DNA from: a virus
Length of the DNA: 24,490 nucleotides
Reading direction: 5' to 3' (one strand)
IMG/VR virus record: IMGVR_UViG_3300011126_000109
Span: 1 to 24,490 of that record
Part shown: positions 1 through 24,490 of the stretch, in pieces
How the letters are laid out: each line of letters begins with the position of its first letter
Position numbering within the stretch: the first letter of the stretch is position 1
The notes under the pieces: model-generated
The model's input: only the letters and a program-made list of their open reading frames with translations
Database searches by the model: none
What the model was told of the DNA's origin: nothing
Made by a program: the position numbers and the translations under genes

Positions 1-185
1 CCGACGAGTGCGTAGGCGAAGCCATCCGGGGCCTGTGCCCGCCTGTAGTGGAGGCTGAGGCGTGCCCACCGCCGCGTGTCGAGGTCATCATCGTGTACGC
101 TGACCCGGACACCGACGAGTGCGACCTGACCGTCCCCGTGGGACACCGACCCATCGAGTGTCGTGGCAAGGACCACGCCCGATGA
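1..185 (+). CDS. 3' end of an unknown small protein (5' end outside window)
   Basis: An open frame runs from the window edge (first whole codon at 3) to a TGA at 183-185. It encodes about 60 residues and has four Cys residues in pairs of context such as DEC...GLC and DEC...IEC, with a short hydrophobic stretch VEVIIVYA. The start lies outside the window. Its stop overlaps the ATG of the protease gene at 182 by the ATGA arrangement that recurs throughout this block, which supports it being a real gene of the same operon. Cys richness and the neighbouring lipoprotein-like genes hint at an exported protein, but I do not recognise a family. Confidence 0.6.
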   Translation, partial: DECVGEAIRGLCPPVVEAEACPPPRVEVIIVYADPDTDECDLTVPVGHRPIECRGKDHAR

Positions 186-841
186 AGGGTATCATCATGT
201 TCCTGGTTGCGATGATGGGTTGTGGGAGCCCCGTCGCCCCTTTATGCCAAGCGCCGGACGTTGCCTCCACCTCGCAATACATTGTGAATGGCACCCCATC
301 GACCGACCGGCGGAGCACGGTGTACGTGCAAGGCCCGGGCTTTTGCTCGGGGACAGTGGTGGGCCCTCACACGGTACTGAGCGCGGCGCACTGTGCGGGC
401 ATGACTGACGTGCTCGTCGAGGGTGTGGCCTGGTACGACGTGGTCGAGGAGCTGGTCCACGAGGACTACTCCTTTCCGCACGCTGACCTCGCCATGTTCT
501 ACGTCGAGGAGGTACTCCCCGAGCCCTACGCAGTCGTCGGCCTCGTGACTGAGTGCTCGGCCCTCGTGGCCCAAGGCTACGGCGTGGGCAGCGGCGGGAA
601 GCTGCACGAGCGCGTGGTCTACGAGACTGACCGGGCAGGCGGCTTCATCCTCACCGACGAAGGCGTGTGCAACGGGGACAGTGGCGGCCCAGTGTACGCC
701 ATCACCGAGGACGGCCCCGTGCTAGTGGGTGTCACGTCGTGGGGCACGAGCGAGCCCAACGTGTGCATCGGCGGGACCAACGGATTCACGGACCTCACCC
801 TGCCCGACAACGCAGCGTGGGTCCAGGAGCATACACGATGA
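182..841 (+). CDS. Trypsin/chymotrypsin-like serine protease (S1 family), putative lipoprotein
   Basis: Encodes 219 aa. All three catalytic motifs of the S1 family are visible: SAAHC (His70), DLAM (Asp102) and GDSGGP (Ser167). It also has a YIVNG segment (residues 33-37) at the place of the mature N-terminus and SWG (188-190 region) lining the pocket. Cys55/Cys71 and Cys163/Cys195 match conserved S1 disulfides. Residues 1-14 form a short hydrophobic leader ending in MMGC, a plausible but not ideal lipobox, so the enzyme is probably exported and perhaps lipid-anchored. I chose ATG 182 over an upstream GTG because it exposes this leader and overlaps the previous stop (ATGA). By alignment to Ser167, the residue equivalent to trypsin Asp189 is Gly161, which argues against Arg/Lys specificity and for small or hydrophobic P1 residues. 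Activation after Tyr33 would also be non-tryptic. A role in lysis, virion maturation or host-surface proteolysis is inference. Confidence 0.9.
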   Translation: MKGIIMFLVAMMGCGSPVAPLCQAPDVASTSQYIVNGTPSTDRRSTVYVQGPGFCSGTVVGPHTVLSAAHCAGMTDVLVEGVAWYDVVEELVHEDYSFPHADLAMFYVEEVLPEPYAVVGLVTECSALVAQGYGVGSGGKLHERVVYETDRAGGFILTDEGVCNGDSGGPVYAITEDGPVLVGVTSWGTSEPNVCIGGTNGFTDLTLPDNAAWVQEHTR

Positions 842-975
842 GCGAAGACCAAATCATCCAGCTACTCGACGCAGTCACGATGGGCGCACGCTCGCTCGTC
901 GCCATCGCCGTGGCCTTGTGGCTCGGCGCAGCCAGCACGAGCGTCACCATCACCAAGGAGGACACCAATGCGTGA
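838..975 (+). CDS. Small single-helix membrane protein
   Basis: Encodes 45 aa. A short polar N-terminus (MSEDQIIQLLDAV) is followed by one hydrophobic helix at about residues 18-32 (SLVAIAVALWLGAAS) and a short polar tail. The ATG at 838 overlaps the protease stop by ATGA, and its own stop overlaps the next gene's start at 968. Small one-helix proteins in phage lysis clusters can be holins or pinholins, and the lipoprotein next door fits such a cluster. There is no diagnostic motif, so holin is only a suggestion. It could equally be a membrane accessory of the protease. Confidence 0.6.
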   Translation: MSEDQIIQLLDAVTMGARSLVAIAVALWLGAASTSVTITKEDTNA

Positions 976-1159
976 CCACATCGACGTGTACGGGCCGTTC
1001 TACTTCATCTTTGGCGTGCCCATCATCCTCTTCTTTGTCGCCCTGATGACCGGGTGTGCCACTACCTACGTCGTCTGCACCCCGAGCCCCACCGCCAACT
1101 GCCGCGTTGACGGGTTCGACATGAGTGCGTGCGATGAGGGAAAGCCGGTGTGCCGATGA
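968..1159 (+). CDS. Small lipoprotein with Cys-rich mature part
   Basis: Encodes 63 aa. A hydrophobic segment at residues 11-27 leads to LMTGC, with Cys30 as the likely lipidated residue. The mature part is only 33 residues and holds four more Cys (37, 45, 55, 62), which may form two disulfides. A very good Shine-Dalgarno, AAGGAGG at 955-961, sits 6 nt before the ATG at 968, so this start is firm. The gene overlaps its neighbours on both sides. Small outer-membrane lipoproteins next to a one-helix membrane protein recall the spanin part of phage lysis cassettes. However, o-spanins are usually Pro-rich rather than Cys-rich, so I leave the function open. Confidence 0.7.
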   Translation: MRDHIDVYGPFYFIFGVPIILFFVALMTGCATTYVVCTPSPTANCRVDGFDMSACDEGKPVCR

Positions 1160-1521
1160 GCTGGTGCGACTGGTTCAGGCGCAAGGCCATCATGGTGGAC
1201 GTGGAGTCCGGGCAGCTAGAGCGTGACAAGCGCGAGCTAGAGGAGCACATCGTCTCGTTGAAGCTCGACCTGGCCAACGCGATGAACCTCGTGCAGTCGG
1301 AGCACCGCAAGCACGATGAGATACGCCGTCGCGTGTCGGATGCACGCATCGAGGAGCTGAGGGTGCAGGGCACCATGCGATACACTGCGTGCAAGGCCGA
1401 GCTAGCCGCCGTGCGTGAGACTAACCGACAACTCAATGACGCACTCATCGCAGCGTACCGCCGCGCTGAGGATGAAGCAATCAAACGACGTGTAGCCTTC
1501 GAGCTATCAAAGGACAACTAA
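1156..1521 (+). CDS. Coiled-coil protein, function unknown
   Basis: Encodes 121 aa. After a Trp/Cys-containing N-terminus (MSWCDWFRRK), residues 15-118 are almost entirely charged heptad-like helix (for example GQLERDKRELEEHIVSLKL and ELAAVRETNRQL), indicating a long coiled coil. I chose ATG 1156 because it overlaps the preceding stop (ATGA); a GTG lies 6 nt upstream in frame. The long coiled coil after a lipoprotein gene resembles the periplasmic part of an i-spanin, but no transmembrane helix is present, which argues against that role. A structural or assembly role is possible. Confidence 0.7.
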   Translation: MSWCDWFRRKAIMVDVESGQLERDKRELEEHIVSLKLDLANAMNLVQSEHRKHDEIRRRVSDARIEELRVQGTMRYTACKAELAAVRETNRQLNDALIAAYRRAEDEAIKRRVAFELSKDN

Positions 1522-1991
1522 TGGCACAACCGGGACAGAAGATAAGCAAGCGAGCACGCCACCGCGCAGCGGTCGAGGCACGCAAGGACCAACCCGTGGT
1601 GAAGCGCCGCAAGCAGCGCCGCAACCCACTCCCTTTCCCGACTGGCTTCTTTGCCATGGCCCGTGAGAACGAACGGGAAGGTGTGCTGATGACACGGGTG
1701 CAGCGCAAGCCGGCTCGTTTCTTCTTGGAGCACTTCGACGCCAACGGCGTCAAGATTCAGGGCGCACTGCAACAGCTACCCAAGGGCACACGAGGCTACG
1801 ACCTGATGCTCGAAGGTGGTGGCGTCCACTCATTCAAGACGCAACGTCGCGCGCTCAAGTTCTTCGCGCGACTGCAAAAGCTGGAGGTCACCGATGAAAA
1901 TCTACATACTGACGAACAAGATTCAGGGGTATCCGACGAGGATACTCAATGTGCAGAAGACCCTGGAGCTAGCGAAGGAGGAGCAAGCTAG
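1521..1991 (+). CDS. Basic N-terminal / acidic C-terminal protein, function unknown
   Basis: Encodes 156 aa and starts at a TAATG overlap with the previous gene. Residues 1-40 are very basic (KISKRARHRA, KRRKQRR), which suggests nucleic-acid contact. The middle (about 45-125) looks like a small folded domain (ARFFLEHFDANGVKIQGALQ, GGGVHSFKTQRRALKFFARL). The last 35 residues are acidic, low-complexity and overlap the next gene in another frame. That tail may have arisen by read-through into the neighbour. No family recognised. Confidence 0.65.
   Translation: MAQPGQKISKRARHRAAVEARKDQPVVKRRKQRRNPLPFPTGFFAMARENEREGVLMTRVQRKPARFFLEHFDANGVKIQGALQQLPKGTRGYDLMLEGGGVHSFKTQRRALKFFARLQKLEVTDENLHTDEQDSGVSDEDTQCAEDPGASEGGAS
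1883..1888 (+). promoter_or_regulatory. Shine-Dalgarno GGAGGT deciding the start at 1894
   Basis: A strong ribosome binding site lies 5 nt before the ATG at 1894, inside the upstream gene. It fixes this start even though the two genes then overlap by almost 100 bases. Confidence 0.75.
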
Positions 1992-2064
1992 GTTCGAGGC
2001 AGCCAACACCCTCAACAGCGTGATGATAGTGTGTCGCGAGGTTGAGTGTGACTGCGACGAATAG
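1894..2064 (+). CDS. Small 56-aa protein overlapping the upstream gene
   Basis: Encodes 56 aa (MKIYILTNKIQGYPTRILNV at the start; a Cys-containing acidic end, CREVECDCDE). A strong Shine-Dalgarno at 1883-1888 supports the start. It overlaps the 3' end of the gene at 1521 by 98 bases in a different frame. The first 20 residues look like one beta strand and a turn, and the rest an amphipathic helix. It is the last protein gene before the tRNA pair, only 5 nt from the first tRNA. Function unknown. Confidence 0.6.
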   Translation: MKIYILTNKIQGYPTRILNVQKTLELAKEEQARFEAANTLNSVMIVCREVECDCDE

Positions 2065-2069
2065 AACAC

Positions 2070-2148
2070 GGAGGTTCGCCCGGAGTGGGCACGGCGACTG
2101 TAACTCGCCCGTCTTATGACATGGGGGGTGCAACTCCCTCAGCCTCCA
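2070..2148 (+). tRNA. tRNA-Tyr (anticodon GTA), unusual or degenerate
   Basis: A class II tRNA fold can be drawn. The acceptor stem GGAGGTT pairs with AGCCTCC (one G-U pair). The anticodon stem GGCGA/TCGCC closes a 7-nt loop CTGTAAC with anticodon GTA at 2100-2102. A variable arm GTC-TTAT-GAC at 2111-2120 closely resembles the GTC-loop-GAC arm of bacterial tRNA-Tyr. The T stem GGGGG/CCCTC (one G-U) closes the loop TGCAACT. Discriminator A is at 2148; CCA is not encoded (CTG follows). Oddities: position 8 is C instead of U, the D arm is short (GCCC/GGGC with a 5-nt loop), and the T loop has G where U55 is expected. It may be a divergent functional tRNA or one in decay. It would insert Tyr at UAC/UAU. 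Confidence 0.6.
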
Positions 2149-2150
2149 CT

Positions 2151-2224
2151 GTGACCGTAGTGTAGTGGTAGCACAACAGGTTGTGTCCCTGTTAGCGTGA
2201 GTTCAAATCTCATCGGTCACCCCA
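2151..2224 (+). tRNA. tRNA-His (anticodon GTG)
   Basis: A complete cloverleaf is visible. The acceptor stem is GTGACCG/CGGTCAC, the D arm GTGT/GCAC with a 7-nt loop, and the anticodon stem ACAGG/CCTGT with loop TTGTGTC (anticodon GTG at 2183-2185). The T stem GTGAG/CTCAT closes a canonical TTCAAAT loop. Discriminator C at 2221 is the expected His identity base, and CCA is encoded at 2222-2224. Two oddities: the base before position 1 is T (2150), so the G(-1) usual for bacterial tRNA-His is not encoded, and position 37 is T where a purine is normal. The gene lies 2 nt after the tRNA-Tyr, so the two are probably processed from one transcript. Confidence 0.9.
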
Positions 2225-2238
2225 CCCTTACAAACGCT

Positions 2239-2299
2239 CTTTCTCTATCAGCGAAACGTGCTTTCTCTATCAGCTCACAAACCTACTTTCCCTATCAAC
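2239..2299 (+). repeat. Three spaced direct repeats CTTTCTCTATCAGC
   Basis: Copies start at 2239, 2261 and 2286. The first two are identical over 14 bases and the third has two changes (CTTTCCCTATCAAC). Spacing is 22 and 25 bp, close to two or more helical turns, as expected for sites bound by one protein on one face of the DNA. They begin 15 nt after the tRNA-His. Likely roles are protein-binding sites (iteron-like origin or regulator sites). Confidence 0.55.
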
Positions 2300-2327
2300 G
2301 AGGGGCTCGGGCCCAGCTCGCGATGGG

Positions 2328-2374
2328 GCGCGCGTGCGCGCGTGCGCGGCCGGGCGTGCGGGCGTGCGCGCGTA
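2328..2374. repeat. Alternating purine-pyrimidine GC tract
   Basis: From 2328 to 2348 the sequence alternates G/T-free purine and pyrimidine steps (GCGCGCGTGCGCGCGTGCGC), and a second alternating run lies at about 2362-2374. Such tracts can adopt Z-DNA and are the most GC-rich part of the window. Confidence 0.4.
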
Positions 2375-2423
2375 GCACGAACTGTGCCAAGCCGATTCCG
2401 CTCGGAGCGGACGGTGCGGACCC

Positions 2424-2439
2424 ATGACACGGATGTCAT
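2424..2439. promoter_or_regulatory. Inverted repeat ATGACA-N4-TGTCAT (operator-like)
   Basis: A perfect 6-bp inverted repeat with a 4-bp centre, in a non-coding region. The size fits a dimeric repressor site. No binding protein can be assigned. Confidence 0.35.
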
Positions 2440-2466
2440 AGCAAAAACCCCCCAAAAACCCACGAT

Positions 2467-2480
2467 GTGAGCTTGCTCAC
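2467..2480. promoter_or_regulatory. Inverted repeat GTGAGC-TT-GCTCAC (operator-like)
   Basis: A perfect 6-bp inverted repeat with a 2-bp centre. A shorter one, GCACA-CGA-TGTGC, lies at 2538-2550, overlapping one of the CACGATG repeats. Both could be operators of early gene control. Confidence 0.35.
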
Positions 2481-2631
2481 GACATATCTGTCCGGGTCGG
2501 GCCCATGGACACGGGAAAAGGGCCGCGTTTCACGATGGCACACGATGTGCATTGTACTAGGGCAGCCGGTAGGCGCCGAACATGGCACCCGAGGCAACCC
2601 AGGCGCGGCTAGATAACGGACGCGCGCCCAT

Positions 2632-2711
2632 GCTCCCCGCGTCGGCTGCTACCAGCGCCACGCCCGCTAGACGGGCCCGCTGCGATTCGCTGCGGCCGAT
2701 TGTTGGGGAGC
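2632..2711. repeat. Long composite hairpin (80 nt), possible structured RNA or origin element
   Basis: Nested arms pair across 80 nt. GCTCCCC (2632) pairs with GGGGAGC (2705). GTCGGCTGC (2641) pairs with GCGGCCGAT (2692), with two wobble pairs. AGCG (2654) pairs with CGCT (2678), and GCCCG (2662) with CGGGC (2672) around loop CTAGA. The result is one long stem with small internal loops, too regular to be chance in my view. It does not fold as a tRNA. It could be a replication-origin cruciform, a leader RNA element, or part of a DNA-packaging or genome-end signal. Confidence 0.5.
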
Positions 2712-2726
2712 TAGCAGTCGAAAATC

Positions 2727-2767
2727 AAAAGGGACACGCTACTCTGACACTGTAGCGCGTCCCCTTT
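2727..2767 (+). terminator. Terminator-like hairpin before the early promoter
   Basis: GGGACACGCTAC (2731-2742) pairs with GTAGCGCGTCCC (2752-2763) with one mismatch. It is extended by A-rich/T-rich flanks (AAA 2727-2729 with TTT 2765-2767) around a 9-nt loop. It would stop rightward transcription from the tRNA block before the early promoter. The T tract is short, so termination strength is uncertain. Confidence 0.5.
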
Positions 2768-2801
2768 GGCATTTGACACGCCAAAGAAAGTTTGCTAAAA
2801 T
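2764..2801 (+). promoter_or_regulatory. Sigma70-type early promoter with inverted repeat over the -35 box
   Basis: TTGACA (2773-2778) and TAAAAT (2796-2801) are separated by exactly 17 bp: a consensus -35 and a near-consensus -10. The -35 box lies in the centre of an inverted repeat, CTTTGGC (2764-2770) and GCCAAAG (2780-2786), which looks like an operator. The predicted start is near 2808. The -10 box overlaps the ATG at 2800, so this promoter cannot serve that ATG. It most probably drives the early genes from 2952 onward, under control of a repressor or activator binding the repeat. Confidence 0.7.
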
Positions 2802-2955
2802 GACGGCCGATGAAAGACGAAAGTTTTTGAAACTAGTTCGGGAAAAGGGCGGCCGTAGTACGGCAACCTATACCACGTTCAAACCAGCAACCAAAGCACG
2901 CCAAAGCGCGCTAACCCGGGTCGGTTTCGGCCCTAGAGAGAAGGCTACAAAATGA
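2800..2955 (+). CDS. Small basic protein, first of the early block (start uncertain)
   Basis: Encodes 51 aa from ATG 2800 and is Lys/Arg rich (ERRKFLKLVREKGG, KARQSALTR). Its stop overlaps the ATG of the next gene (2952). The ATG lies inside the -10 box of the promoter at 2764-2801, so a transcript from that promoter would start about 8 nt downstream and miss it. Either the gene is read from an upstream transcript, or a later non-ATG start such as TTG 2827 is used, or this frame is not a gene. Basic composition suggests nucleic-acid contact, but no family is recognised. Confidence 0.45.
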   Translation: MTADERRKFLKLVREKGGRSTATYTTFKPATKARQSALTRVGFGPREKATK

Positions 2956-3368
2956 GATATACCGGAACAAACAACCAAGCGGACCAAGCGCGAATCAAAC
3001 GAATCCGCGACACTGCGGCCGATTGTAAACACTCGTTCAAACGATACCACGGGGACGCGCTACACTGGGAGCCGGCCGCTGATGTCTTTGGCTACCACGT
3101 CGGGCCCGACGTACAGTTTCACCTTGAATACTGCACGACGTGCGAAACGCGGCGCGAGGTAACGCCCGAAGGGGACGAGATAGCGCGCCATCTAGTGCTA
3201 GGCCGACCCGAGAACGTCTATGTAGAAGCACAGGCGGAGCCGGGCGTATACGTGCCTCGGAACGATGGCATTGATTCGTTCAACGAATCAACCGACGCGG
3301 ACAAGCGCGACCCGTTGTTTACAAACTTGTTCGATAGGCGCGGCGGAGCCGGAGGCATCGGGGACTGA
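2952..3368 (+). CDS. Early protein of unknown function with CxxC motif
   Basis: Encodes 138 aa. A good ribosome site (AGAGAAGG about 8 nt upstream) and stop/start overlaps with both neighbours support the gene. The sequence contains EYCTTCETRREV (a CxxC about residues 60-63) and an upstream Cys/His pair (DCKHSFKRYHGD), which together could make a small zinc-binding site. The C-terminus is acidic then Gly-rich and probably disordered. Host-takeover proteins of this size are common in early phage blocks; no specific function can be given. Confidence 0.65.
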   Translation: MRYTGTNNQADQARIKRIRDTAADCKHSFKRYHGDALHWEPAADVFGYHVGPDVQFHLEYCTTCETRREVTPEGDEIARHLVLGRPENVYVEAQAEPGVYVPRNDGIDSFNESTDADKRDPLFTNLFDRRGGAGGIGD

Positions 3369-3511
3369 TGAACTATCAAACGTTCTACAAAATAAATGCT
3401 TGGATTGACGCGCTAAAGCACGTCGAACCGAAACGCGATGAACTAGAACTAGACGCGCTTGACCTTCAACCGATAGCGCAACCCATAACCAAACGAAAGA
3501 CGGTGATATAA
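3368..3511 (+). CDS. 47-aa early protein, function unknown
   Basis: Encodes 47 aa (MNYQTFYKINAWIDALKHVE at the start). The ATG overlaps the previous stop (TGATG) and the stop overlaps the next start (TAATG at 3509-3513), so it fills exactly the space between two genes. It is largely helical and acidic with a Lys/Arg-rich end (PITKRKTVI). Codon use (CTA Leu, ATA Ile) matches the other early genes. No family recognised. Confidence 0.6.
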   Translation: MNYQTFYKINAWIDALKHVEPKRDELELDALDLQPIAQPITKRKTVI

Positions 3512-3909
3512 TGCGACAAATCAACCAAACGAAAATCTTTGTCAGTGCCGAACGCCACGACGAAACCGAAACCGAAAATCAGCATAGGTCAACCGACCTG
3601 CACGCCAAACTAGAGAACGCGGGTTACTCGTTCCGATACGTGGACGGGTGTTACTCCGCCGCGTTTGAAACCGCGTTTTGTGTCTTCGCAACCCCGGGTC
3701 AAATCCTGGACACGATTGACGACGTGGTAACACTGGCGCGCGAGTTTCAACAAGACACGGTTCTAGTTGTCCACGGGGACAACGCGGCGGAGCTAGTGGA
3801 AGTGAACACGACGTGCAGCGCCATCATCGGGACGTTTCAAACGGTTGAACATCCGGAGCCGGGCGAAGACTGCACGATAGCGGACGGCATCTACTACGTT
3901 GTGCGATAA
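3511..3909 (+). CDS. Small early phage protein, possibly DUF3293-like
   Basis: Encodes 132 aa, preceded by GGTG 5-6 nt before the ATG. The middle, GYSFRYVDGCYSAAFETAFCVF followed by a helix (DDVVTLAREFQQ), a DTVLVVHGDN strand-turn and a final short domain, resembles in pattern the small phage and bacterial proteins grouped as DUF3293. That resemblance is from memory and not searched. No catalytic residues are evident. It sits in the middle of the early block, with 29 nt before the next gene. Confidence 0.6.
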   Translation: MRQINQTKIFVSAERHDETETENQHRSTDLHAKLENAGYSFRYVDGCYSAAFETAFCVFATPGQILDTIDDVVTLAREFQQDTVLVVHGDNAAELVEVNTTCSAIIGTFQTVEHPEPGEDCTIADGIYYVVR

Positions 3910-3938
3910 CTAACAACTAACGAGGAAAAGGTGACGAT

Positions 3939-4367: not shown

Positions 4368-4368
4368 G

Positions 4369-4854: not shown

Positions 4855-4856
4855 AC

Positions 4857-4916: not shown

Positions 4917-4930
4917 ACTCGACTGCGACG

Positions 4931-4979: not shown

Positions 4980-4986
4980 GCGTTTC

Positions 4987-6588: not shown

Positions 6589-7121
6589 GAATCATCAACG
6601 AGAAGGGTGCCTTCGACATCCGCCACGCCGAGGACTCCGACCTCGACTACATCCTTTCCTCCTGGCAGCTCACCTGGGAGCGCAGCCCCGAGTGGAACAT
6701 GCCGGGGACCATCCGGGACGAGTACTTCCGCCACGCCCACCTCATCCTCGATGAGCTTATCAGCAGGTCGAGCGCCAACGGCGCCCTGTACGTGTGCCAC
6801 CACGCCGGGAGCCCCCACCTCATCCGTGGGTACCTCTGCGGCGAGGTCTTCCAGAACCCGGACATCGCCTACCTCCACTGGGTGCAGTGCAAGAAGCCCG
6901 AATGGAACAAGGGCGTGGGCCAGGCCCTCATGGAGGCGTTCACGCGCAACTTCAACATCGACCTGGAGGGCGGGCAGAACATCCTGTACACGTTCTCCAA
7001 CAGCGCCCTGAAGCGCCCTGCGTTCGCGCAGAAGGCGTGCCAGGCGTACAACCTCGTGTACTGGCCGACCTTCAAGTACACCAGCCAGGCCCCGGGCTGG
7101 GAAGCTGGACGTGCCCGCTAA
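6585..7121 (+). CDS. GNAT-fold acetyltransferase-like protein
   Basis: Encodes 178 aa. It begins like a GNAT domain (FDIRHAEDSDLDYILSSW, residues 10-27). It has a likely acetyl-CoA loop at residues 108-114 (NKGVGQA; the family pattern is R/Q-x-x-G-x-G/A) followed by the helix ALMEAF. ATG 6585 overlaps the previous stop (ATGA) and the gene's end overlaps the terminase start by 11 nt. GNAT-like genes directly before a large terminase occur in several podoviruses, so I take this as a stable neighbour. Substrate and activity are unknown; Asn108 replaces the first Arg/Gln of the loop and it may be a weak or non-catalytic member. Confidence 0.65.
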   Translation: MRIINEKGAFDIRHAEDSDLDYILSSWQLTWERSPEWNMPGTIRDEYFRHAHLILDELISRSSANGALYVCHHAGSPHLIRGYLCGEVFQNPDIAYLHWVQCKKPEWNKGVGQALMEAFTRNFNIDLEGGQNILYTFSNSALKRPAFAQKACQAYNLVYWPTFKYTSQAPGWEAGRAR

Positions 7122-8658
7122 GAAACCGAACGACCTCATCGCCCAGGAGCGTAGGCGGAAAGAGCTACTCGCGCTCTACGCCACGCAGAAGAACGCCCTA
7201 GCAAAGCTGGACTTCACGGAGCTGTTGCATCCAAAGCAGCTCGCGTTTGCGAACGACCCCGCCCAGTTTAGGGTGGCCTGTTGCTCGCGCCAGTCGGGCA
7301 AGTCCCACTGTGCCGCGCTCATCGCCTTGAAGGCTGCGATTGAGATACCGGGGTCCACTCCCGTATATATCAACATGAATAGGGCGTCCGCCCAGTACAT
7401 CATTTGGCCCCCGCTGATGGAGCTGAATGAGAAGTACGGCCTCGGGCTGGAGTTCATCAAGACCACCTCCGACATCAGGCTACCCAACGGGTCGGTCATC
7501 AAGGTGTTCGGCGCTGGCTCGCTCCGCGAGATGGACAAGATTCGAGGCATCGGTGCCACGCTGAACCTGGTCATCCTCGATGAGGCCCAGAACTTCGGCA
7601 GCGACATGTACAAGCTCATCCGCGAGATTCTCCTTCCCGCGACCGTCACTCACAAGGCCCCCATCCTCATCACAGGGACACCTGGGGCGGCGTGTGCCGG
7701 CCCCTTCTACGACATCGTCCACGGTGGCGGCGAGATGTTCAAGGGCGACGACGACAACCAGCTCATGGGCTGGAGCCAGCACTCCTGGCTAATGAAGGAC
7801 AATCCATACATACCGGACGTGGAGGAGCAGTACCGCGTGCATAAGGCAGCAAACAACTGGACCGACGCCAGTCCGCCTTTCCGCCGTGAGTACCTGGGTG
7901 AGTGGGTCAGAGATACAGACGGGCTGTGCTATTACAGCAAGAACAGCATGGTGGTGGACAGGTTCCCCATCGAGCGGGCGAGCGACTGGCGCTACATCCT
8001 CGGCGTCGATGTCGGGACCAAAGACCCCTGGTCGTTCTCCATGCTCGCGACGAGCCGCGACGTGCAGGCCACCTACGTCCTGGAGTCCGTCGAGAAGCAG
8101 CTCACCACCCTGGAGGCAGGGGACGTGGTCGGGGACTTCATGGACATCTACCCGTGCCACACCATCGTAGTGGACACAGGCGGGCAGGGAGCGGCCCCCG
8201 TGGCCCAGTGGAAGGATACCCACCCCCTCCTTCCCATCCAGCCCGTCAAGAAGGGCTACGGCTCGGTGGACATGGGCATCCAAATCATCAACGCCGACAT
8301 CCAGGCGAACCGGCTCTACTTCGTCAAGGGGGGGACCGTGGACCTGCGGATGCAGATGGGCGTACTCATCTGGGACCACAAGGCGAGCCCCACGGGGGCG
8401 AGACGGGTCAAGCGCGGCGACGGGTACCCGGACCACTGTGCAGACTCCATGCGGTACGCCTACACCAAGGTCCGTACCTGGAAGACCGCGCAGTACGGCG
8501 AGAGCGCCCTGCAAAGTTCCGTTGAGAACGCACGGCGCCACGCGGCGAAGATGAAGCGCGACATCCTCAGCGAGAGCCCCGAGACGGAGGTGCCCTTCTG
8601 GGAAAAGCTCGTCAAGGGCTCGAAGACGCGCGAGGACTCCGGCTACGGCCCGTTCTAG
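7111..8658 (+). CDS. terL: Terminase large subunit
   Basis: Encodes 515 aa from GTG 7111. This is the motor that pumps DNA into the procapsid and cuts concatemers. The N-terminal ATPase shows a Walker A CSRQSGKS (58-65), Walker B LVILDEAQ (153-160) with catalytic Glu158, and a coupling motif ITGTPG (187-192). The C-terminal RNase H-like nuclease shows YILGVDVGTKD (Asp300), TIVVDTGGQG (Asp355) and PDHCADSMRYAY (Asp441/Asp445), giving the expected acidic triad. Length is typical. The start overlaps the GNAT gene by 11 nt; there is no ATG nearby, so GTG is accepted. The stop at 8656-8658 shares CTAG with the stop of the convergent minus-strand gene. Confidence 0.95.
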   Translation: MPAKKPNDLIAQERRRKELLALYATQKNALAKLDFTELLHPKQLAFANDPAQFRVACCSRQSGKSHCAALIALKAAIEIPGSTPVYINMNRASAQYIIWPPLMELNEKYGLGLEFIKTTSDIRLPNGSVIKVFGAGSLREMDKIRGIGATLNLVILDEAQNFGSDMYKLIREILLPATVTHKAPILITGTPGAACAGPFYDIVHGGGEMFKGDDDNQLMGWSQHSWLMKDNPYIPDVEEQYRVHKAANNWTDASPPFRREYLGEWVRDTDGLCYYSKNSMVVDRFPIERASDWRYILGVDVGTKDPWSFSMLATSRDVQATYVLESVEKQLTTLEAGDVVGDFMDIYPCHTIVVDTGGQGAAPVAQWKDTHPLLPIQPVKKGYGSVDMGIQIINADIQANRLYFVKGGTVDLRMQMGVLIWDHKASPTGARRVKRGDGYPDHCADSMRYAYTKVRTWKTAQYGESALQSSVENARRHAAKMKRDILSESPETEVPFWEKLVKGSKTREDSGYGPF

Positions 8659-9178: not shown

Positions 9179-9183
9179 AGGTT

Positions 9184-9207
9184 GCAACCATTTCAGTTAT
9201 ATATAGA
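9184..9207 (+). promoter_or_regulatory. Phage promoter-like motif, copy 5 (rightward, portal operon)
   Basis: Reads ACCATTTCAGTTATATATAG followed directly by the ATG of the portal gene. The predicted start at G9206 leaves a 1-nt leader. It is identical over more than 20 bases to copy 2. Confidence 0.75.
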
Positions 9208-11126
9208 TGTCCGCCCCCGCTGTATCAGCCGCCGACCTATCTGTTCCCTGGTGGGACGAGAAGTCGAAGACGAAAATCCTACCCAAGGTCACCCGGCTGT
9301 ACCGCTTCTACGTGGACCAAAGCCGTGACCGACTGAACGCCTACCGTTCCTGGTCCAGCATCTACACCAACCGCGACATCAAGGGTGACAATACCCTCAC
9401 GTCGTACCTTTCCGCCGTCAACAGCGCCCAGTACAGCCGGGTGCCCCTGAACGTCGCCAAGGTAATGACCGACGCCGTCCATGCACGGCTCACTCGCCCG
9501 GCAGTCGCCGTCGAGTTCCTACCCGCCGGGGGCAACTGGTCGCTCCGCACCCGCGCCAAGCAGATGAGCCAGTTCGTTCGTCAGCAGTCGCATCAGTGTG
9601 ACCTCCGCGACCTCCAGGACCAGGCAGAGCTGGACGCCCTCATCCTCGGCGTCGGCGCCATCAAGACAGCGCCCCACCCGGTCATCCCAACCATCGAGAA
9701 CTTCCGGGTCCACCCCCGCGACATCTTCGTGGACCCCGTCGAGGCAGCCAGCACCGGCAAGCCCTCGCACCTCTACCACCGCATGAGCGTGGACCGAGGC
9801 CGGCTCACCAAGATGTTCCCCAGCGCCAAGAAGGCCATCATGGCCGCCGGGCGCCCCACCGCCGCAGACGACAATGCCGACTGGTCAGATGACAGCGAGC
9901 ACGTAGGCGCAGACCGGGGCCACATGGTCGAGGTCGTGGAAGCCTACAAGCTCCCGAGCTGGCGCGGCTCAGGCGACGGCAAGAAGGTCATCTTCATTGA
10001 CGGCGCGGTACTCGACTCCTGCGAATGGGTAAACACCTCCTTCCCGTTCAGCTTCACCTACTGGAAGAAAGACCCCACGGTCGGTTTCTTCGGTATCGGA
10101 CTCGTCGAAGAACTCGTCGGGCTCCACTGGGACATCAACACCTCGCTCCTCCACGTTGAGAAGTGCGTCGAGGCGATGCCCAAGCCATACATTCTGTGCC
10201 CCGCTGATGGAGAAATCTCCGAGGGCAAGCTAGCCGGCGTACCCGGCATCATCATCAACCACACGGGACGGGCGCCTCAGATTGTAATGCCCCCATCCGT
10301 CCCACAAGATGTCGTGAACTACATCGGCGTGCAATGGCAGCGAGCCCTGCAAGTAGCCCGACTAGTCGCGATGGGGTTGCCCGAATCAGCCGGCTCGCAG
10401 GGTGAGACAGGGCAGGCGTTCAAGGACATCGTTGACATCCAGTCAACGGAGCTGTCCCCAGCCTTCCGCTTCAGGGAGGACTTCTGCATCCGTGTGGCCG
10501 AGCAACAGATTGTTGCGGGCAAGATTCTGGACATTCGGACCCCGGGTGGTTTCAAGACCGTCCTCCGGAAAGACCGGAACACCGTCGAGGCAGTCAACTG
10601 GAAGAACATCGACCTTGACCCCAAGGTAGACTCCTACGTCGTGCAAGCCGAGCCCACCTCCGCATTGAGCACCACCTTCGGTGGCCGCCTCGCAGAGATG
10701 AAGGAACTCATCGGCCTCGGCGTCATTCCCCCCAGCCGCGCGTTCAAGTACCTGGACATTCCGGACTTCGACGCGGAGGCACGCATCCAGAACGCCAGCC
10801 TCGACTTCATCGAGCGCATCATGGAAGAGATTCTGGACGACGGCAAGTTCACCGAGCCGGAACCGACGATGGACCTACGCCTCGCGCTCAAGGTCAGCCA
10901 AAAGTACATCAACCTCGCCCAGGCAATGGGAGTCGAAGAGGAATCTGTCAACATGCTCTACCAGTTCTTGCGTGGAGTGACGGACCTTATCGCTGAGGAA
11001 CAAGAAGCAACACAGGCGCAGGCGTCGGGGATGGGCCCTGGACTCCCGGGCCAACCACCGGCACAGGACATCACCGGAGCATCGCCCGGAGCGGCGACTC
11101 TCTCTGGTCAGGTCATGGGTCAATAA
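9207..11126 (+). CDS. Portal protein (head-tail connector)
   Basis: Encodes 639 aa. The portal forms the dodecameric ring through which DNA enters and leaves the head. Support: position directly after terL and before scaffold and capsid, typical length, and portal-like segments such as VPLNVAKVMTDAVHARL (78-95), FRVHPRDIFVDP (about 165-180), FGIGLVEELVGLHWDIN (about 295-312) and MGLPESAGSQGETGQAFKDI (about 388-408). The C-terminus is a helical region then a Gln/Gly/Pro-rich tail. There is no Shine-Dalgarno: the ATG abuts promoter-like copy 5, so a leaderless or 1-nt-leader mRNA is predicted. The next in-frame ATG would remove conserved sequence, which supports this start. Confidence 0.9.
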   Translation: MSAPAVSAADLSVPWWDEKSKTKILPKVTRLYRFYVDQSRDRLNAYRSWSSIYTNRDIKGDNTLTSYLSAVNSAQYSRVPLNVAKVMTDAVHARLTRPAVAVEFLPAGGNWSLRTRAKQMSQFVRQQSHQCDLRDLQDQAELDALILGVGAIKTAPHPVIPTIENFRVHPRDIFVDPVEAASTGKPSHLYHRMSVDRGRLTKMFPSAKKAIMAAGRPTAADDNADWSDDSEHVGADRGHMVEVVEAYKLPSWRGSGDGKKVIFIDGAVLDSCEWVNTSFPFSFTYWKKDPTVGFFGIGLVEELVGLHWDINTSLLHVEKCVEAMPKPYILCPADGEISEGKLAGVPGIIINHTGRAPQIVMPPSVPQDVVNYIGVQWQRALQVARLVAMGLPESAGSQGETGQAFKDIVDIQSTELSPAFRFREDFCIRVAEQQIVAGKILDIRTPGGFKTVLRKDRNTVEAVNWKNIDLDPKVDSYVVQAEPTSALSTTFGGRLAEMKELIGLGVIPPSRAFKYLDIPDFDAEARIQNASLDFIERIMEEILDDGKFTEPEPTMDLRLALKVSQKYINLAQAMGVEEESVNMLYQFLRGVTDLIAEEQEATQAQASGMGPGLPGQPPAQDITGASPGAATLSGQVMGQ

Positions 11127-11881: not shown

Positions 11882-13159
11882 ATGGCTACTACCCCTATCG
11901 GTAGCGCCGGTACCTTGGCGCAAGGTGATTTCTCGTCCGGCTTCAACGCCGCGCCGGGCGACTACATTGCGTTCCTGAAGGAGTTCTATCAGGGCACCGT
12001 GGTTGCGGACTTGGTTTATAAGAACCACCCGTGGCTAGGTCTTGTCCCGAAGAACCCCGAAGTTCGAGGAACCGTCTACCCCAAACCCGTGAAGTACGCG
12101 AACATTGTCGGTCAGTCCGCTCTGTACGCTACCGCCCACGAAAACCAGGCTCCTGCACAGCGTCAGCGCTGGGAGCTTACCCACATTGACAACTACGCGA
12201 AAGCGACCGTCAGCAACAAGGTGATCGAGCTTTCGCTTGGTAACCCGGCTGCGTTCCGTGAAGCCCTTACCGAGTCCGTGGACAGCGCTTACAGCGCCTT
12301 CGCGAACGACGTGGACTTCGAGATTCTCGCGAAGTACGACAATGGTGCGCGTGCCGCCCTTACCGGCGCCATCAGCACACTGACCCTCTCGCTAGGCGCG
12401 GGCGAAGCTCGTTTCTTCGAGGTCGGTATGAAGATTCAACACACCGCGTCGGGAGCACACACCGTGCTCACCACGTCAGGTGAGGTTGTAACTGTCACTC
12501 ATGTTGACCGTGTCGCTGACACCATCGACGTGAACGCCAGCTTCACCGCCGTCGAGGCCGCAGGCGACCGTCTGTACCGCGAAGGCGACCACCAGGCCAA
12601 GGCCGCCAGCCTTCCCGGCTGGGTTCCTGGCACGTCGGTCACCTCGACCGCATGGTTCGGTATTGACCGAACCGTGGACACTCGTCTTGCCGGCGTCACC
12701 GCCGTTCAGGGCACGGGCACGGCAGCGCCGTACCTCAAGTGTCTCGTCGATACTGGCGCGATTCTTTACAAGGAAGGCTCGTCCCCGGACATCTGTCTTC
12801 TCAACCCCGTAGACCACGCCGCTCTCGCCTTCGAGACGGAAACTCGTGGTGCGCGATACGTGAACCTCGGTGCAACGTCGGGCGGAATGAGCTACAGCGC
12901 TCTCTCCGTGATGACTGGTGCAGGCGAGTGTCCCGTTGTGGCAGCCCCGGCCCTGGCCGAGGACACTGTCGCCATGGGCGAGCGTAGCGCCGTCGAACTC
13001 TTCTCGGCAGGTGGGCTCCCCCGCATGTTCAAGAAGGACGGTTCGTTCTACCACCGTGAGGAAGGTGCCGATACGTTGGCGTTCTACCTCTTCGGTTACT
13101 ACAACCAGGTTGTGCAGAGTCCGATCAAGTGGGCATACCGCTCCGACATCGTTGCGTAA
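11882..13159 (+). CDS. Major capsid protein (HK97-like fold expected)
   Basis: Encodes 425 aa. Support: position after scaffold, length, and typical features of podovirus capsid proteins. These are a helical N-terminal arm ending in LKEFYQGTVVADLVYKNHPWLGLVP (31-55), an ELSLGNPAAFREALTESVDSAY spine-like helix (about 115-135), an inserted beta domain (160-225), and a C-terminal run with INTERIOR-type strands FYLFGYYNQVVQSP. The gene uses more T-ending codons than its neighbours, as expected for a very highly expressed gene. It holds both GATC sites of the window (12223 and 13123). Only a weak ribosome site (AGGTAA) precedes the ATG. Confidence 0.9.
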   Translation: MATTPIGSAGTLAQGDFSSGFNAAPGDYIAFLKEFYQGTVVADLVYKNHPWLGLVPKNPEVRGTVYPKPVKYANIVGQSALYATAHENQAPAQRQRWELTHIDNYAKATVSNKVIELSLGNPAAFREALTESVDSAYSAFANDVDFEILAKYDNGARAALTGAISTLTLSLGAGEARFFEVGMKIQHTASGAHTVLTTSGEVVTVTHVDRVADTIDVNASFTAVEAAGDRLYREGDHQAKAASLPGWVPGTSVTSTAWFGIDRTVDTRLAGVTAVQGTGTAAPYLKCLVDTGAILYKEGSSPDICLLNPVDHAALAFETETRGARYVNLGATSGGMSYSALSVMTGAGECPVVAAPALAEDTVAMGERSAVELFSAGGLPRMFKKDGSFYHREEGADTLAFYLFGYYNQVVQSPIKWAYRSDIVA

Positions 13160-19273: not shown

Positions 19274-21624
19274 TGGGAACCGATTGGATTAGCAAGGTCT
19301 TCGAGCGACCCGACGAGTCACCGCCCGAGCCCGAGCCCGTCAAAGAGGAAGAGGTAGGCGACAAGCCCATGCTTTCGGGGGATAAGAACGCCGAGAAGCC
19401 AGCCTTCGTGTCGAGCACCACGGCCACCCCCAGCGATGAGGACGCCAAGGCGCCCAAGGCCCCGTACAACCTCAAGGGAGAGTACAGCCCCCAGCTTCCC
19501 GAGGACATCCAGGACGAGCGCCAGCTCCTCCGCCAGAAGGAACTGAACTTCTCAGAGGCCCAGAGCTTCACCCGGCTGAACACCGGCCGTGCCCTTTCGC
19601 AGACCAAGGCGATGGCGCAGGAGATTCTTGCGGACGACTACGAGGAGATGGACCGGCTCAACAAGGAGCACTACTCCCGGTGGGAGTCAGAGAACGCCGC
19701 CTTCCGTGCCGACATCGACGCCGCCAGGCAGCTCCGGGTCAACCCGAACAACTACTTCCAGAACATCGGCCGCTCGGGCCGCGTGTCCTCGGTGCTCGCC
19801 GCCGCCGCTAGCCAGATGGCAGCCGGTGCGGGCAACCCAAACATGGCGTGGAACCGCATCAAGGCGACCATCGACCAGGACATCACGACGCAGAAGGCGA
19901 ACATCGAACTGGAGTTTGCCGGCATCGAGACAGGCCAGAACCAGCAGGACCGCGAGGCCCTGATGCTTCAGAAGTACTACGGCTTCGAGGAGAAATCCCG
20001 AGCCGTCGCCATGACCGCGCTGGAGGCCCAGGTGGGCGTCATCAAGCAGCGCGCCGGCAACGAGATGGAGTACCAGGCGTACCAAATGATTCGTGACCGG
20101 GCCCGCGCGGAGGCCATCGACGCCTCGGCCGCAGCCCTGGCCAAGAACGCCACCCTCTACCTCGACCAGCCCACGCACACCGCATACCAGAACCTCATCG
20201 CCGCCAACAGGTGGAAAGAGGCTCAGGCCATGCTCCAGGCTGCGTACCACCAAGAGGAAGGTTCCGCTCAGGCTGTAGATACGTCAATCGACACCTACGA
20301 TGCCCAGGGGAACCCCGTTCAAATCACTGACCCGCCGCCGGCCCAACCGCTCGGTGAGGTCGTAGAGGGCCCTGGTGGCCCCGTAGAGGCCGCCCCGCAA
20401 ACTGGGGCAGCTCGGGTCGCCCGTAAGCGCCAGGAGCCCAAGGCTGGACCCTCGCCAGAGGAACAGGCCGTTATCGACTCCGCGCCGGACATCGCCGCAG
20501 ACGCCCAGACCGACCGGGCGAACGACCCGCTCACCCCTGAGCAGGCCCACATGGAGAATCTCCTGGGTCCAGTCGAGGGTGCCCCCGCAGGCATCGAGCG
20601 ACCGGCCGACCAGGTGGCAGCCGAGCTGTCCACCGCCGACGCCGAGGCAGCCGAGCGCAAGCTCCGCCGCCGGGCAGGTGCCGCTCAGACCGAGGCAGGC
20701 ATCCGTCAGCGCATGACCGACAAGGTCTTCCAGCAGGGCGGCTACCGCTACTCTGAGCTGATTCGCAACGGCCACCCCGAGGCAGCGCTTCGCGGCCAGA
20801 ACATCAACACCTTCGCTGAGGCTCGTGACCGCATCCTGGACACGGACGACCCGACCATCGCGGTCTTCCCGTCCTACGCCGATGCCATCGAGGGGCTCAA
20901 GTACGACACCCGCACCGGGGCTCGCGCCGAGTACGAGCGGAAGAACCCCGAGCTGTACGAACAGAACATGGACATCCCGCACGAGGGCACCAAGACCAAG
21001 CCCAGGGTTGTGGAGTCCAACTACGTGAAGTCCGGCTGGGGCATTATGAAGCTCGACAAGGCCGCCACCATCCGCTTCGACCAGGACGGCCGTGACGCTC
21101 TCCGCGCCGAGCTGAACACCGACTTTGCCCGAGCAGGGGAAATCAAGGCCCAGGCCGACGCTATCGCAGCGGCAGGTACCGGCTCCTTCCTCGGCTTCCA
21201 AATCACCAAGGACGGCCCCACCTGGGTCGGCACCGAGGGTGGCGTGGAAATGCAGGAGAAGCTCTCCGGGCAGACAGGGCTGGGCATCCAGGCCATGAAG
21301 CTCCTCGACCCCTCCGGTCGTCTCACCGACAAGGACATTGAGGTTGGCAAGGAATACATGTCCGCCCTCCTCCAGAACAAGAGCATCAAGGGCTGGGACA
21401 TGCTGACGGGGCTGTACCGCAGCGCCACGGGCAAAGACCCAACCAAGAGCGACCTCCGCCGCGTCCTCCGTAAGACGATGGTAGCGATGTCGAACAAGCT
21501 CTCACGAGCCGTCGCCATGAAGCATGTCGGCGTGGTGGTCTTCGACTTCGAGCAGAACGACCAACTCAGCCGCAAGCAGAACGAGACTGAGAAGTTCATG
21601 CGCTCCATCGAGAAGGACGACTGA
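19273..21624 (+). CDS. Large internal virion (ejection) protein
   Basis: Encodes 783 aa and begins at a TAATG overlap with GGGAG upstream. An acidic Pro-rich N-terminus (1-75) is followed by long helices (about 80-340, for example QLLRQKELNFSEAQSFTRL and QQDREALMLQKYYGFEEKS), a Pro/Ala/Glu-rich linker (about 340-470), and a mixed C-terminal domain (480-783). Size, helix content and place after two small internal proteins match the gp15/gp16 type of podovirus core proteins. I see no lysozyme or transglycosylase catalytic motif. Confidence 0.65.
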   Translation: MGTDWISKVFERPDESPPEPEPVKEEEVGDKPMLSGDKNAEKPAFVSSTTATPSDEDAKAPKAPYNLKGEYSPQLPEDIQDERQLLRQKELNFSEAQSFTRLNTGRALSQTKAMAQEILADDYEEMDRLNKEHYSRWESENAAFRADIDAARQLRVNPNNYFQNIGRSGRVSSVLAAAASQMAAGAGNPNMAWNRIKATIDQDITTQKANIELEFAGIETGQNQQDREALMLQKYYGFEEKSRAVAMTALEAQVGVIKQRAGNEMEYQAYQMIRDRARAEAIDASAAALAKNATLYLDQPTHTAYQNLIAANRWKEAQAMLQAAYHQEEGSAQAVDTSIDTYDAQGNPVQITDPPPAQPLGEVVEGPGGPVEAAPQTGAARVARKRQEPKAGPSPEEQAVIDSAPDIAADAQTDRANDPLTPEQAHMENLLGPVEGAPAGIERPADQVAAELSTADAEAAERKLRRRAGAAQTEAGIRQRMTDKVFQQGGYRYSELIRNGHPEAALRGQNINTFAEARDRILDTDDPTIAVFPSYADAIEGLKYDTRTGARAEYERKNPELYEQNMDIPHEGTKTKPRVVESNYVKSGWGIMKLDKAATIRFDQDGRDALRAELNTDFARAGEIKAQADAIAAAGTGSFLGFQITKDGPTWVGTEGGVEMQEKLSGQTGLGIQAMKLLDPSGRLTDKDIEVGKEYMSALLQNKSIKGWDMLTGLYRSATGKDPTKSDLRRVLRKTMVAMSNKLSRAVAMKHVGVVVFDFEQNDQLSRKQNETEKFMRSIEKDD

Positions 21625-24200
21625 TGGCTGAGAACGTTCGTTTCAACGCTGGACACGGGGACCGAGTCCTCCCACAAGCCGACTTCGTCAACTTCATGGC
21701 GAATCTCTCGGGCGCTGCACGCGCTCGCGTGAAGGTGCATGGGAAGCACGACGCGGTGTACCGCAACACCGAGGGTGACCTTGTACGTGAGGGCATCAGC
21801 GGCGACCAGGTGAGCGCACGCATGGACCTCGGTGAGCAGCCGATGGTCACCGGGGCAGATGACCCCAAGCTCCAGGCGCAGATGCGGCAGGAGCAGGGCC
21901 GCGCTCGCGAAGCAGTAGCCAAGGAAGAGGGCGTCCTCGCGACGTTCAACGCCATCAACCCGATGCGCCTCACGGGTATCCCCCAGGCTCTAGAGTCGGC
22001 GGTGCTTGGCGAGGACCAGGCCATCCAGGCGCAGAACGAGATTGCAGCGGCCAACCCCGGCGAGAACATGCTGGGCTCGATGACGCTCGGCTTCGGTGCA
22101 GGCGGCGCAGCCATGGGCGCGCTCAAGGGCATCGGCATCACGGCAAAGACCGGAAAGGGCCTCGGGCTCCTCACGCACATCGCAACGGATGAAGCGGCCT
22201 TCGAGACTGCTCTCTACCAGAAGCACATCATGGACCAACGCCAGGACTTCCAGGCGGAGGAACTGGCACAGAACATCGTGCAGGGTATGATGTTCGCAGC
22301 CCCAGTGGTTGGCGGAGCGCTCCTCCGTAAGCCTATTTGGAACGCGGTCAGCATGGTCGGTGGCGGAGCCATGGGCCACATCCAGTCGGGCCTCGTGGTC
22401 GCCGGGCTCCGGTCGCAGGACGCCGCGCAGGCCAGCAAGTACCGCCGGACGGCAGCAGTCGCCGGCATCGGACGCCGTCTCTTCGGTGGTCGCAAGACCG
22501 TGACGAAGGTGGACGAGCTGGCCGAGATGCGGAAGGCCGCAGCCGCAGAAGAACTCAGCATCGGGCGGGCAACCCCCGAGAGCCTCAAGGGCAACAAGGT
22601 CAAGCGCGAGAGCATCCTTGACTCCGTCAAGAAGAACATGGACCAGAAGGCCACCTACCTCGACAACATCGACGTGGGCAACATGGCTCCGGCCCTGACC
22701 AAGGTCCGCACCGCTGGGCGCCAGGCGCAGAACTCCATCTGGGGTGTCAACCGCAGCGTCGGCACCGGGGCCGTCATCGGCGTCGGCAACCTGGGCAAGA
22801 CCTCGCTCGCGCACCTGGAGTCCGCGATGGACAACTTCCTGGGCCGCGCAGACGACATGGGCCTGGGCGACATCGTCGGCCACCTCCGCGACGTGAAGGG
22901 CCACAAGCAGCTTGGGCTTCTTTTCCAGGCGCGGCTCGACCTTCGTCTCAAGGGCGCCGTGGGCAACCAGTCCACCTCACTCCTCGAAGCAGAGCTGAAG
23001 GCCATCACGGAAGACCCCCGCATCTGGGGCACCGGCAAGCACGCCGAGCAGGCTCGGAACCTGAACAACGGCATCAATAACATCACCGAGGGGTTCACCG
23101 AACTCAAGCGCCTCGACATTCCCGACGACCTCAGCAAGATTCCTGACGGCACCAACCTGGACGCGATGGACAAGGCCCTGGCCACCATCCGCAAGGGCGC
23201 CGACGACCTGCACGCCTCCAAGCTGTTCACCACCAAGCAGAAGATTGGCCTCGAAGCGAAGCTCAACAAGATTGAGGACACGCTCGTCGAGGGCAAGCGC
23301 GCCTACGTGGACGCAGTCAAGCTCAACAAGGCACGCAACAGCGCCGCCAAGAACCACAAGGCCCGCTACGACAAAATCAAGTCGGGCGACGTGGAGACGG
23401 TGGGAGCCCTCGAAGCTCGCATGGCCAACCGCATCGGTGAGTGGTCGGGCGCACGTACCGGGCTCATCAAGGCACTCGACACCCTCGCCACCTCGGGCCG
23501 CATCCCCATCTACTCGAACCGGATGCTCAAGACACTCCGCGAGTCCACGATGGAGGACAAGGAAGAGTTCTTCATGGAGATGCAGGAGCGTCTCCCCGGC
23601 ATGGTGAGCAACCCTGAAATCATGGCCTCCTCGATGGAGCCCTTCATGGCCGAGGCCCCGCAGAACCCCACCATGCACGCGATGGCTGGTGTGGCCGCAG
23701 GCAACTCCACCTACTTCCTGATGAACAAGCTGGGTCGAGTGGACCGGACTCTCTACGGCAAGGGCCGTCGTCCGCGCCGCGACCGTGTGCTCCGCTTCAC
23801 CGAGAGCTACGCCGCGATGGCGAGCCCCATGGACGTGGCCTACGCCGCCGTCTCAGGTGATGTCACCCAAGACATGGTGGACGCCGTCCGCGTGTCGAAC
23901 CCAGCGCAGTACGCAGAGCTGGGCCAAATCCTTTCCGCCTTTGTGGACAACGTCGAGCTGGGACAGCTTCCCCGCTCCACGCAGAAGGGCATCAACAAGT
24001 TCCTCGGGGGCATGGACCCCCTCTTCATGGGCCCGGTGCTCATGCAGCTCCAGAGCAACTACGCACAGAACGAGCAGCAGTCCGACGCCGTAGGCGGCCA
24101 GCAACAGCAGGGCCAGGGCATCGACGGAAACTTCAAGCAGTCTCACCCGCAAGACGGTGACAACGCCTTCACCTTCACCCAACGGCTAATGAGTTACTAA
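21624..24200 (+). CDS. Large internal virion protein with hydrophobic segments
   Basis: Encodes 858 aa. A ribosome site, AAGGAC, precedes the start overlap (TGATG). Residues about 115-230 hold two Gly/Ala-rich hydrophobic runs (MTLGFGAGGAAMGALKGIGI and MMFAAPVVGGALL), and another lies near 240-265 (SMVGGGAMGHIQSGLVVAGL). These could be membrane-entry helices of an ejected protein. The rest is long charged helices (about 275-640), and the C-terminus is Gln-rich and disordered. It likely forms the outermost or largest part of the DNA-delivery core, like T7 gp16, though no enzyme motif is visible. Confidence 0.65.
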   Translation: MAENVRFNAGHGDRVLPQADFVNFMANLSGAARARVKVHGKHDAVYRNTEGDLVREGISGDQVSARMDLGEQPMVTGADDPKLQAQMRQEQGRAREAVAKEEGVLATFNAINPMRLTGIPQALESAVLGEDQAIQAQNEIAAANPGENMLGSMTLGFGAGGAAMGALKGIGITAKTGKGLGLLTHIATDEAAFETALYQKHIMDQRQDFQAEELAQNIVQGMMFAAPVVGGALLRKPIWNAVSMVGGGAMGHIQSGLVVAGLRSQDAAQASKYRRTAAVAGIGRRLFGGRKTVTKVDELAEMRKAAAAEELSIGRATPESLKGNKVKRESILDSVKKNMDQKATYLDNIDVGNMAPALTKVRTAGRQAQNSIWGVNRSVGTGAVIGVGNLGKTSLAHLESAMDNFLGRADDMGLGDIVGHLRDVKGHKQLGLLFQARLDLRLKGAVGNQSTSLLEAELKAITEDPRIWGTGKHAEQARNLNNGINNITEGFTELKRLDIPDDLSKIPDGTNLDAMDKALATIRKGADDLHASKLFTTKQKIGLEAKLNKIEDTLVEGKRAYVDAVKLNKARNSAAKNHKARYDKIKSGDVETVGALEARMANRIGEWSGARTGLIKALDTLATSGRIPIYSNRMLKTLRESTMEDKEEFFMEMQERLPGMVSNPEIMASSMEPFMAEAPQNPTMHAMAGVAAGNSTYFLMNKLGRVDRTLYGKGRRPRRDRVLRFTESYAAMASPMDVAYAAVSGDVTQDMVDAVRVSNPAQYAELGQILSAFVDNVELGQLPRSTQKGINKFLGGMDPLFMGPVLMQLQSNYAQNEQQSDAVGGQQQQGQGIDGNFKQSHPQDGDNAFTFTQRLMSY

Positions 24201-24201
24201 C

Positions 24202-24490
24202 ATGGCAATCACTAACAAAAACCCAGCAGCGAACAGCGTCATCGCCCCGGCGGACAGCTTCACCTTTGACATCGACGACACCTACACCTCCCTAGTGGTG
24301 AAGGTCACCCAGAGCGGGGGCGACGAGTACGCCTACGACTCCACCCTCGGTGGGGCACAGTCGGGGTACGTGGTCACCGTGGAGGACATCGGTAGCCAAG
24401 ACCGTGTCACCATCACGCGCACGGCAGGGTGGAACAAGGAGACTACGAGCATCCTTGGGGTAGAGAACGAGTCGGGCAGCTCCGTCCAGA
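24202..24490 (+). CDS. 5' end of a beta-rich structural protein (runs off window)
   Basis: The frame begins at ATG 24202, one base after the previous stop, and stays open for 96 codons to the window edge. The sequence is beta-rich with Thr/Ser/Val strands (ADSFTFDIDDTYTSLVVKVT; SGYVVTVEDIGSQDRVTITR), typical of tail fibre, tailspike or decoration proteins. Coming after the internal proteins, a tail fibre or appendage protein is the natural guess. No Shine-Dalgarno is visible. Confidence 0.55.
   Translation, partial: MAITNKNPAANSVIAPADSFTFDIDDTYTSLVVKVTQSGGDEYAYDSTLGGAQSGYVVTVEDIGSQDRVTITRTAGWNKETTSILGVENESGSSVQ

Follow-up and report, generated by a model that had tools for sequence, protein, structure and literature searches.

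Genes of the fragment and a predicted SAM lyase

The window, meaning the whole stretch of DNA analysed here, is an IMG/VR fragment of 24,490 bases, and all counts given for it refer to this fragment rather than to a whole genome. It encodes a terminase large subunit, a portal protein, a podovirus-type capsid protein, two adjoining tRNA genes, a trypsin-like protease and a predicted SAM lyase (Table 1). A trypsin-like protein is also found in the relative G004 (L016 549-1205). No DNA methyltransferase or base-modification family was detected among the scanned proteins of the window and of G004, a scan covering part of the open reading frames and, for the window, a fragment.

Table 1. Features of the window.
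Feature	Position	Strand	Basis or remark
Trypsin-like protease (PF00089)	119-841		lipoprotein-like start
tRNA-Tyr	2070-2149		adjoins tRNA-His
tRNA-His	2151-2224		adjoins tRNA-Tyr
Predicted SAM lyase, T3 SAMase family (PF23780), 132 aa	3511..3909	+	Pfam, PHROG, fold match
Terminase large subunit	7111..8658	+	phrog_2 E 2.5e-39
Portal protein	9207..11126	+	phrog_156 E 2.2e-06; collinear homologues in relatives
Major capsid protein, podovirus type	11882..13159	+	phrog_14242 E 2.3e-08; NF033394 E 2.4e-06, below its cut-off
First surviving GATC	12223..12226		Val-Ile, GTG ATC; closest relative L003: GTC ATC
Second surviving GATC	13123..13126		Pro-Ile, CCG ATC; L003: CCC ATC

The putative SAM lyase matches the PF23780 profile with 76 bits (cut-off 28; E 3e-21), and the T3 SAMase matches the same Pfam and PHROG families. 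An AlphaFold2 model of the window protein (pLDDT 84) aligns with the T3 SAM lyase structure 8bb1 over 128 residues (Z 18.1, rmsd 1.9), with unrelated rows scoring about 7 or less. Searching PDB sequences with the window protein returned no match; only the fold comparison gave one. Sequence family and predicted fold identify the gene as a predicted lyase of the T3 type, although aligned identity to the T3 enzyme is 27% and the loop preceding the conserved Glu is shorter in the window protein. Taking Gly56, Glu69 and Gln104 of Svi3-3 as the reference active-site residues, Gly46 and Gln110 of the window lyase are invariant and can be aligned with T3. All three lyase copies of this lineage have Glu53, and its pairing with T3 Glu68 rests on a by-eye alignment that requires a 6-residue loop deletion. 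Homologues of the lyase are present in the relatives G004 and L006, while no match was found in the remaining searched relatives, which are mostly short fragments. A search for the family in 42 random contigs was likewise empty, which is no proof of absence there. The PHROG family concerned, phrog_2226, is titled 'SAM-dependent methyltransferase', yet it contains the T3 SAMase, and PF23780 is the SAM lyase family (window 3511-3909; L195 901-1359); the wrong name is carried by annotated phage records, that of T3 among them.

The T3 SAMase leaves T3 DNA unmethylated, and its role against host restriction is described as having been disputed (PMC8406200), for which reason an anti-restriction role of the window lyase is something we infer. 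SAM is required by Type I and III restriction enzymes and not by orthodox Type II enzymes (Rusinov and co-authors), so a lyase-bearing phage would still need to lose its Type II words.

GATC is avoided through synonymous codon choice

GATC occurs twice in the whole window, at exactly the two positions in the capsid gene reported in a preliminary description of the sequence, and there are no further sites. The expectation from base composition is 82.9 copies, near the roughly 85 estimated in that description, and a maximal-order Markov model predicts 90.6. Synonymous codon shuffling gives 79.8 ± 6.5 copies, and shuffling codons only within the same following-base context gives 55.3 ± 5.0 (lowest 40). 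The observed count of 2 therefore lies outside the range of the codon-shuffled controls, whose lowest value in 200 shuffles is 62. GATC is the most strongly depleted of all 256 tetramers under the Markov and codon-shuffle nulls alike.

The avoidance is reached at synonymous sites, as codon choice for Ile and Asp demonstrates. Following a G-ending codon, Ile is encoded by ATC 2, ATT 38 and ATA 9 times, compared with ATC 244, ATT 29 and ATA 5 times following any other codon (Fisher p = 3.8e-32). This bears out the earlier claim that ATT replaces ATC after G-ending codons, and an equal ATT preference after other codons, the pattern that would have spoken against avoidance, is not seen. All six ATT examples listed earlier are present, with their quoted positions 3 to 6 bases too early; the codons begin at 12323, 16766, 16790, 17354, 18446 and 19226. 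The same avoidance is seen in a further codon phase, where Asp preceding a C-starting codon is GAC in 104 cases and GAT in none. Judged against L003, the closest relative, both surviving GATC sites look like young synonymous changes. The pair is confined to a single 1.3-kb gene.

GATC is one of many eliminated palindromes

Depletion in the window is not GATC-specific. Defining as testable any palindromic 4-mer or 6-mer with an expectation of at least 4.6, and as eliminated any at 10% or less of its expectation, we found that 16 of the 44 testable palindromes are eliminated and 28 are normal, with none between 10% and 50%. Counting GATC, at least 16 palindromes are thus eliminated, compared with a mean of 0.05 to 0.14 and a maximum of 1 in codon-shuffled genomes. 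Absence affects 14 of 29 palindromic hexamers and only 5 of 1,966 non-palindromic ones. The absent hexamers with the highest expectations (in brackets) are GAGCTC (16.5), CTCGAG (15.5), GTCGAC (12.9), CCGCGG (11.7), CAGCTG (10.1), GACGTC (9.4) and AGGCCT (9.3), followed by GTGCAC, CTGCAG, CGTACG, CACGTG, ACGCGT, TTCGAA and AAGCTT, each with an expectation of about 5 or more. Some of the eliminated words with expectations of 5 to 7 could singly be absent by chance. The tetramers AATT and TTAA are absent as well, against 14 and 17 copies expected from codon shuffling. Other palindromes occur at normal frequency (observed/expected: GGCGCC 21/22, CGGCCG 24/22, GCCGGC 19/20, TCGCGA 13/13). One of the five absent non-palindromes is the asymmetric GAGACC/GGTCTC (0/11.6 counting both strands), and GGTCTC is a known Type IIS recognition word. 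Elimination in the window is limited to palindromes and other words of the Type II kind.

All palindromic hexamers together amount to 201 copies against 384 expected, about half. When inverted 3-base arms are separated, the deficit present at gap 0 (201 against 421) fades from a gap of 1 or 2 bases and hardly any remains beyond. Degenerate recognition words that would merge several lost hexamers were considered and rejected, as no degenerate hexamer was found that lacks its non-palindromic members too; the majority of the lost hexamers therefore seem to represent distinct specificities. The only merged words to appear are some of 7 bp, for example GCGWCGC and CCGWCGG. GCGWCGC is absent from the window, L003, G006, L009 and G004 (2.8 to 7.6 expected in each) and normal in L010 (18/14.6).

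Lost words are shared and turn over among relatives

Relatives were found as IMG/VR contigs using the terminase, portal, capsid and tail genes. They include G004 (IMGVR_UViG_3300009702_000038, 44.4 kb; L005/L011/L013-L016) and G006 (IMGVR_UViG_3300011261_000081; L007/L017/L018). Statements about clades rest on a quickly built capsid tree whose outgroup has a long branch, and which gives no direction of gain versus loss. GATC is absent or nearly so in eight relatives (L003, L002, G006, L009, L006, L012, G004 and L004) and not eliminated in L030, L031, L033, L008 and the distant L010, with observed/expected values in these outer relatives of 56/52 for L030, 84/94 for L031 and 133/140 for L010. 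Relatives at 62-79% aligned-nucleotide identity have a common lost core of GATC, GAGCTC and CTCGAG, and most of them have also lost GTCGAC, CCGCGG, CAGCTG and GACGTC.

Beyond this core the lists are lineage-specific. The window has lost AGGCCT and GTGCAC, G006 has lost AGCGCT, and G004 has lost GCCGGC, CGGCCG, GGGCCC, TGGCCA and CCATGG, five words that together occur 71 times in the window and twice in G004. Conversely, AGGCCT is at 0/9 in the window and at 25/32 in G004, and codon-aligned stretches contain it 13 times in G004, 7 times in G006 and not once in the window. L003, G006, L006 and L012 likewise have no GAGACC/GGTCTC, and the word is retained in G004 (17/24) and L004 (7/5). The non-palindromic AGTTC/GAACT is reduced only in G004 (18 copies against 72.6 expected; L014-L016).

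Sequence searches found no close relatives among annotated phage records. A tblastn search of 50,697 phage records with the capsid protein of the window gave no match, and the window's terminase matched phage records only below 60% identity. Two scans of species genomes, one using a terminase alignment and the other the trypsin-like protein, yielded no relative, and hence no host was identified and no cognate restriction system was seen.

The breadth of loss lies within the range of virulent podoviruses

For comparison, 40 stretches of 20 kb each were taken from viral contigs drawn by a 15-base word, a procedure blind to site loss. The median number of eliminated palindromes in these stretches is 1, two stretches reach 14, and GATC is eliminated in 5, compared with 13 to 15 eliminated palindromes in 20-kb parts of the window. 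The window proteins have no match in the 40 stretches. One random contig, L167 (IMGVR_UViG_3300032038_000160, first 20 kb), wholly lacks five tetramers (AGCT 0/65, CCGG 0/124, CGCG 0/179, GATC 0/69 and GGCC 0/124).

Among known phages, eliminated/testable palindromes number 9/54 in T7, 13/53 in T3, 14/60 in phiKMV, 7/64 in SP6, 27/51 in gh-1, 19/51 in Pisces, 18/63 in VyarbaL, 9/55 in PRA33, 13/53 in A-4L, 2/47 in Mx8 and 2/47 in K, for stretches that are mostly 38-45 kb and hence have more power than the 24.5-kb window. In 24.5-kb parts, T3 has 8-10 eliminated palindromes, VyarbaL 10 and T7 5, compared with 16/44 in the window. Pseudomonas phage gh-1 (L200) has the highest elimination of all phages examined. 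The idea that the window is unique in its breadth of loss is contradicted by the random viral stretches and the T7-group phages: it lies in the upper tail, still inside the known range of virulent podoviruses, and the phage itself is probably virulent.

The phages of the T7 group (T3, T7, gh-1 and phiKMV) resemble the window in having wholly lost many palindromic hexamers, often together with GATC, whereas the virion proteins of the window are not close to theirs. Anabaena phage A-4L has GATC at 0/97 over 41.75 kb and has lost 12 further palindromes, and its gene order of terminase, head-tail adaptor, scaffold and capsid resembles that of the window. It differs in its 43% G+C, in the additional elimination of GGCC and in its cyanobacterial host, and at E 1e-5 there is no capsid match between it and the window. 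Staphylococcus phage K also has GATC at 0/93 in its first 45 kb, but its eliminated words are limited to GATC and GGCC. The kind of phenomenon is thus already established, with other phages matching or exceeding the window. Complete or near-complete elimination of words has been described for roughly 10% of phage genomes and has been ascribed overwhelmingly to orthodox Type II words, Type I words not being among those that phages are known to avoid (PMC6286503).

Many Type II restriction enzymes as the probable selecting agent

The GATC deficit, as the largest among all tetramers, would by itself be compatible with selection on GATC alone, whether through one GATC restriction system, Dam methylation or MutH mismatch repair. 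For phiX174, which is without GATC, mismatch repair has been investigated as the cause (PMC5014478). Dam or mismatch repair would remove only GATC, though, and at least 15 other palindromes are equally eliminated; mismatch repair in particular is not known to be connected with GAGCTC, CTCGAG or GTCGAC. As a whole account a GATC-only cause is refuted and so very unlikely, although it could still contribute to the loss of GATC itself. For the preliminary description this means that restriction-driven selection is well supported, while its focus on GATC-targeting systems is too narrow.

A mutational or codon-context bias, arising from codon pairs, tRNA supply or methylation-driven deamination, could make words rare, and some other tetramers do deviate moderately (CATG 103/141, CTGC 45/72). 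We nevertheless regard this as extremely improbable: unrelated hexamers stand at exactly zero while GGCGCC, CGGCCG and TCGCGA stay normal, non-palindromic hexamers are almost never absent, and shuffles that respect following-base context retain about 55 GATC. The halving of palindromic hexamers in total might instead reflect a general, structurally driven avoidance of all short palindromes, with hairpins or recombination as examples of a cause, rather than of particular restriction sites. Against this, the counts are bimodal with no partial class, the deficit fades once the arms are 1 or 2 bases apart and the list of lost words varies among relatives, leaving very little probability for a structural cause.

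The elimination very probably reflects selection by a large number of orthodox Type II restriction enzymes that the hosts carry, rather than by one GATC system. The shared core, the lineage-specific lists and the normal GATC of the outer relatives fit this explanation. A host Type II enzyme would cut incoming unmethylated phage DNA at its recognition word, and a genome without that word would escape cutting. Synonymous changes over time would have removed GATC, AATT, TTAA, at least 14 palindromic hexamers and GGTCTC, words that would belong to different enzymes distributed across the host population. At the genus level, restriction specificities per genome have a mean of 2.5 and a median of 2, with about 16 in Microcystis (PMC8262939). 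As at least 15 specificities exceed the set of one typical genome, the explanation has to assume several hosts or one with an exceptionally rich set.

In such a scheme the SAM lyase would deal with SAM-dependent Type I and III restriction, Type II enzymes being escaped through site loss. T3 likewise pairs a SAMase with 13 eliminated palindromes. The lyase was considered as a cause of multi-site loss and rejected. In the four phages with a lyase, 9 to 19 words are eliminated, and gh-1 and phiKMV, for which no lyase is on record, lose as many or more (27 and 14), so we claim no causal link; gh-1 shows that site loss does not in general require a SAM lyase. It is conceivable, if rather unlikely, that the lineage couples a lyase disarming SAM-dependent restriction with a drainage of SAM that blocks host methylation of phage DNA. 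If so, the phage DNA would stay unprotected and Type II words would have to be lost completely, and the lineage-specific lists of lost words would be a record of the restriction repertoires of the hosts.

These results add a predicted SAM lyase to a phage lineage without a close match in the searched phage records and move the focus from the single word GATC to an entire repertoire of words. They illustrate how much of a host restriction arsenal may be readable from an uncultured phage alone, with each lineage's own list of forbidden words predicting the enzymes to seek in its hosts.
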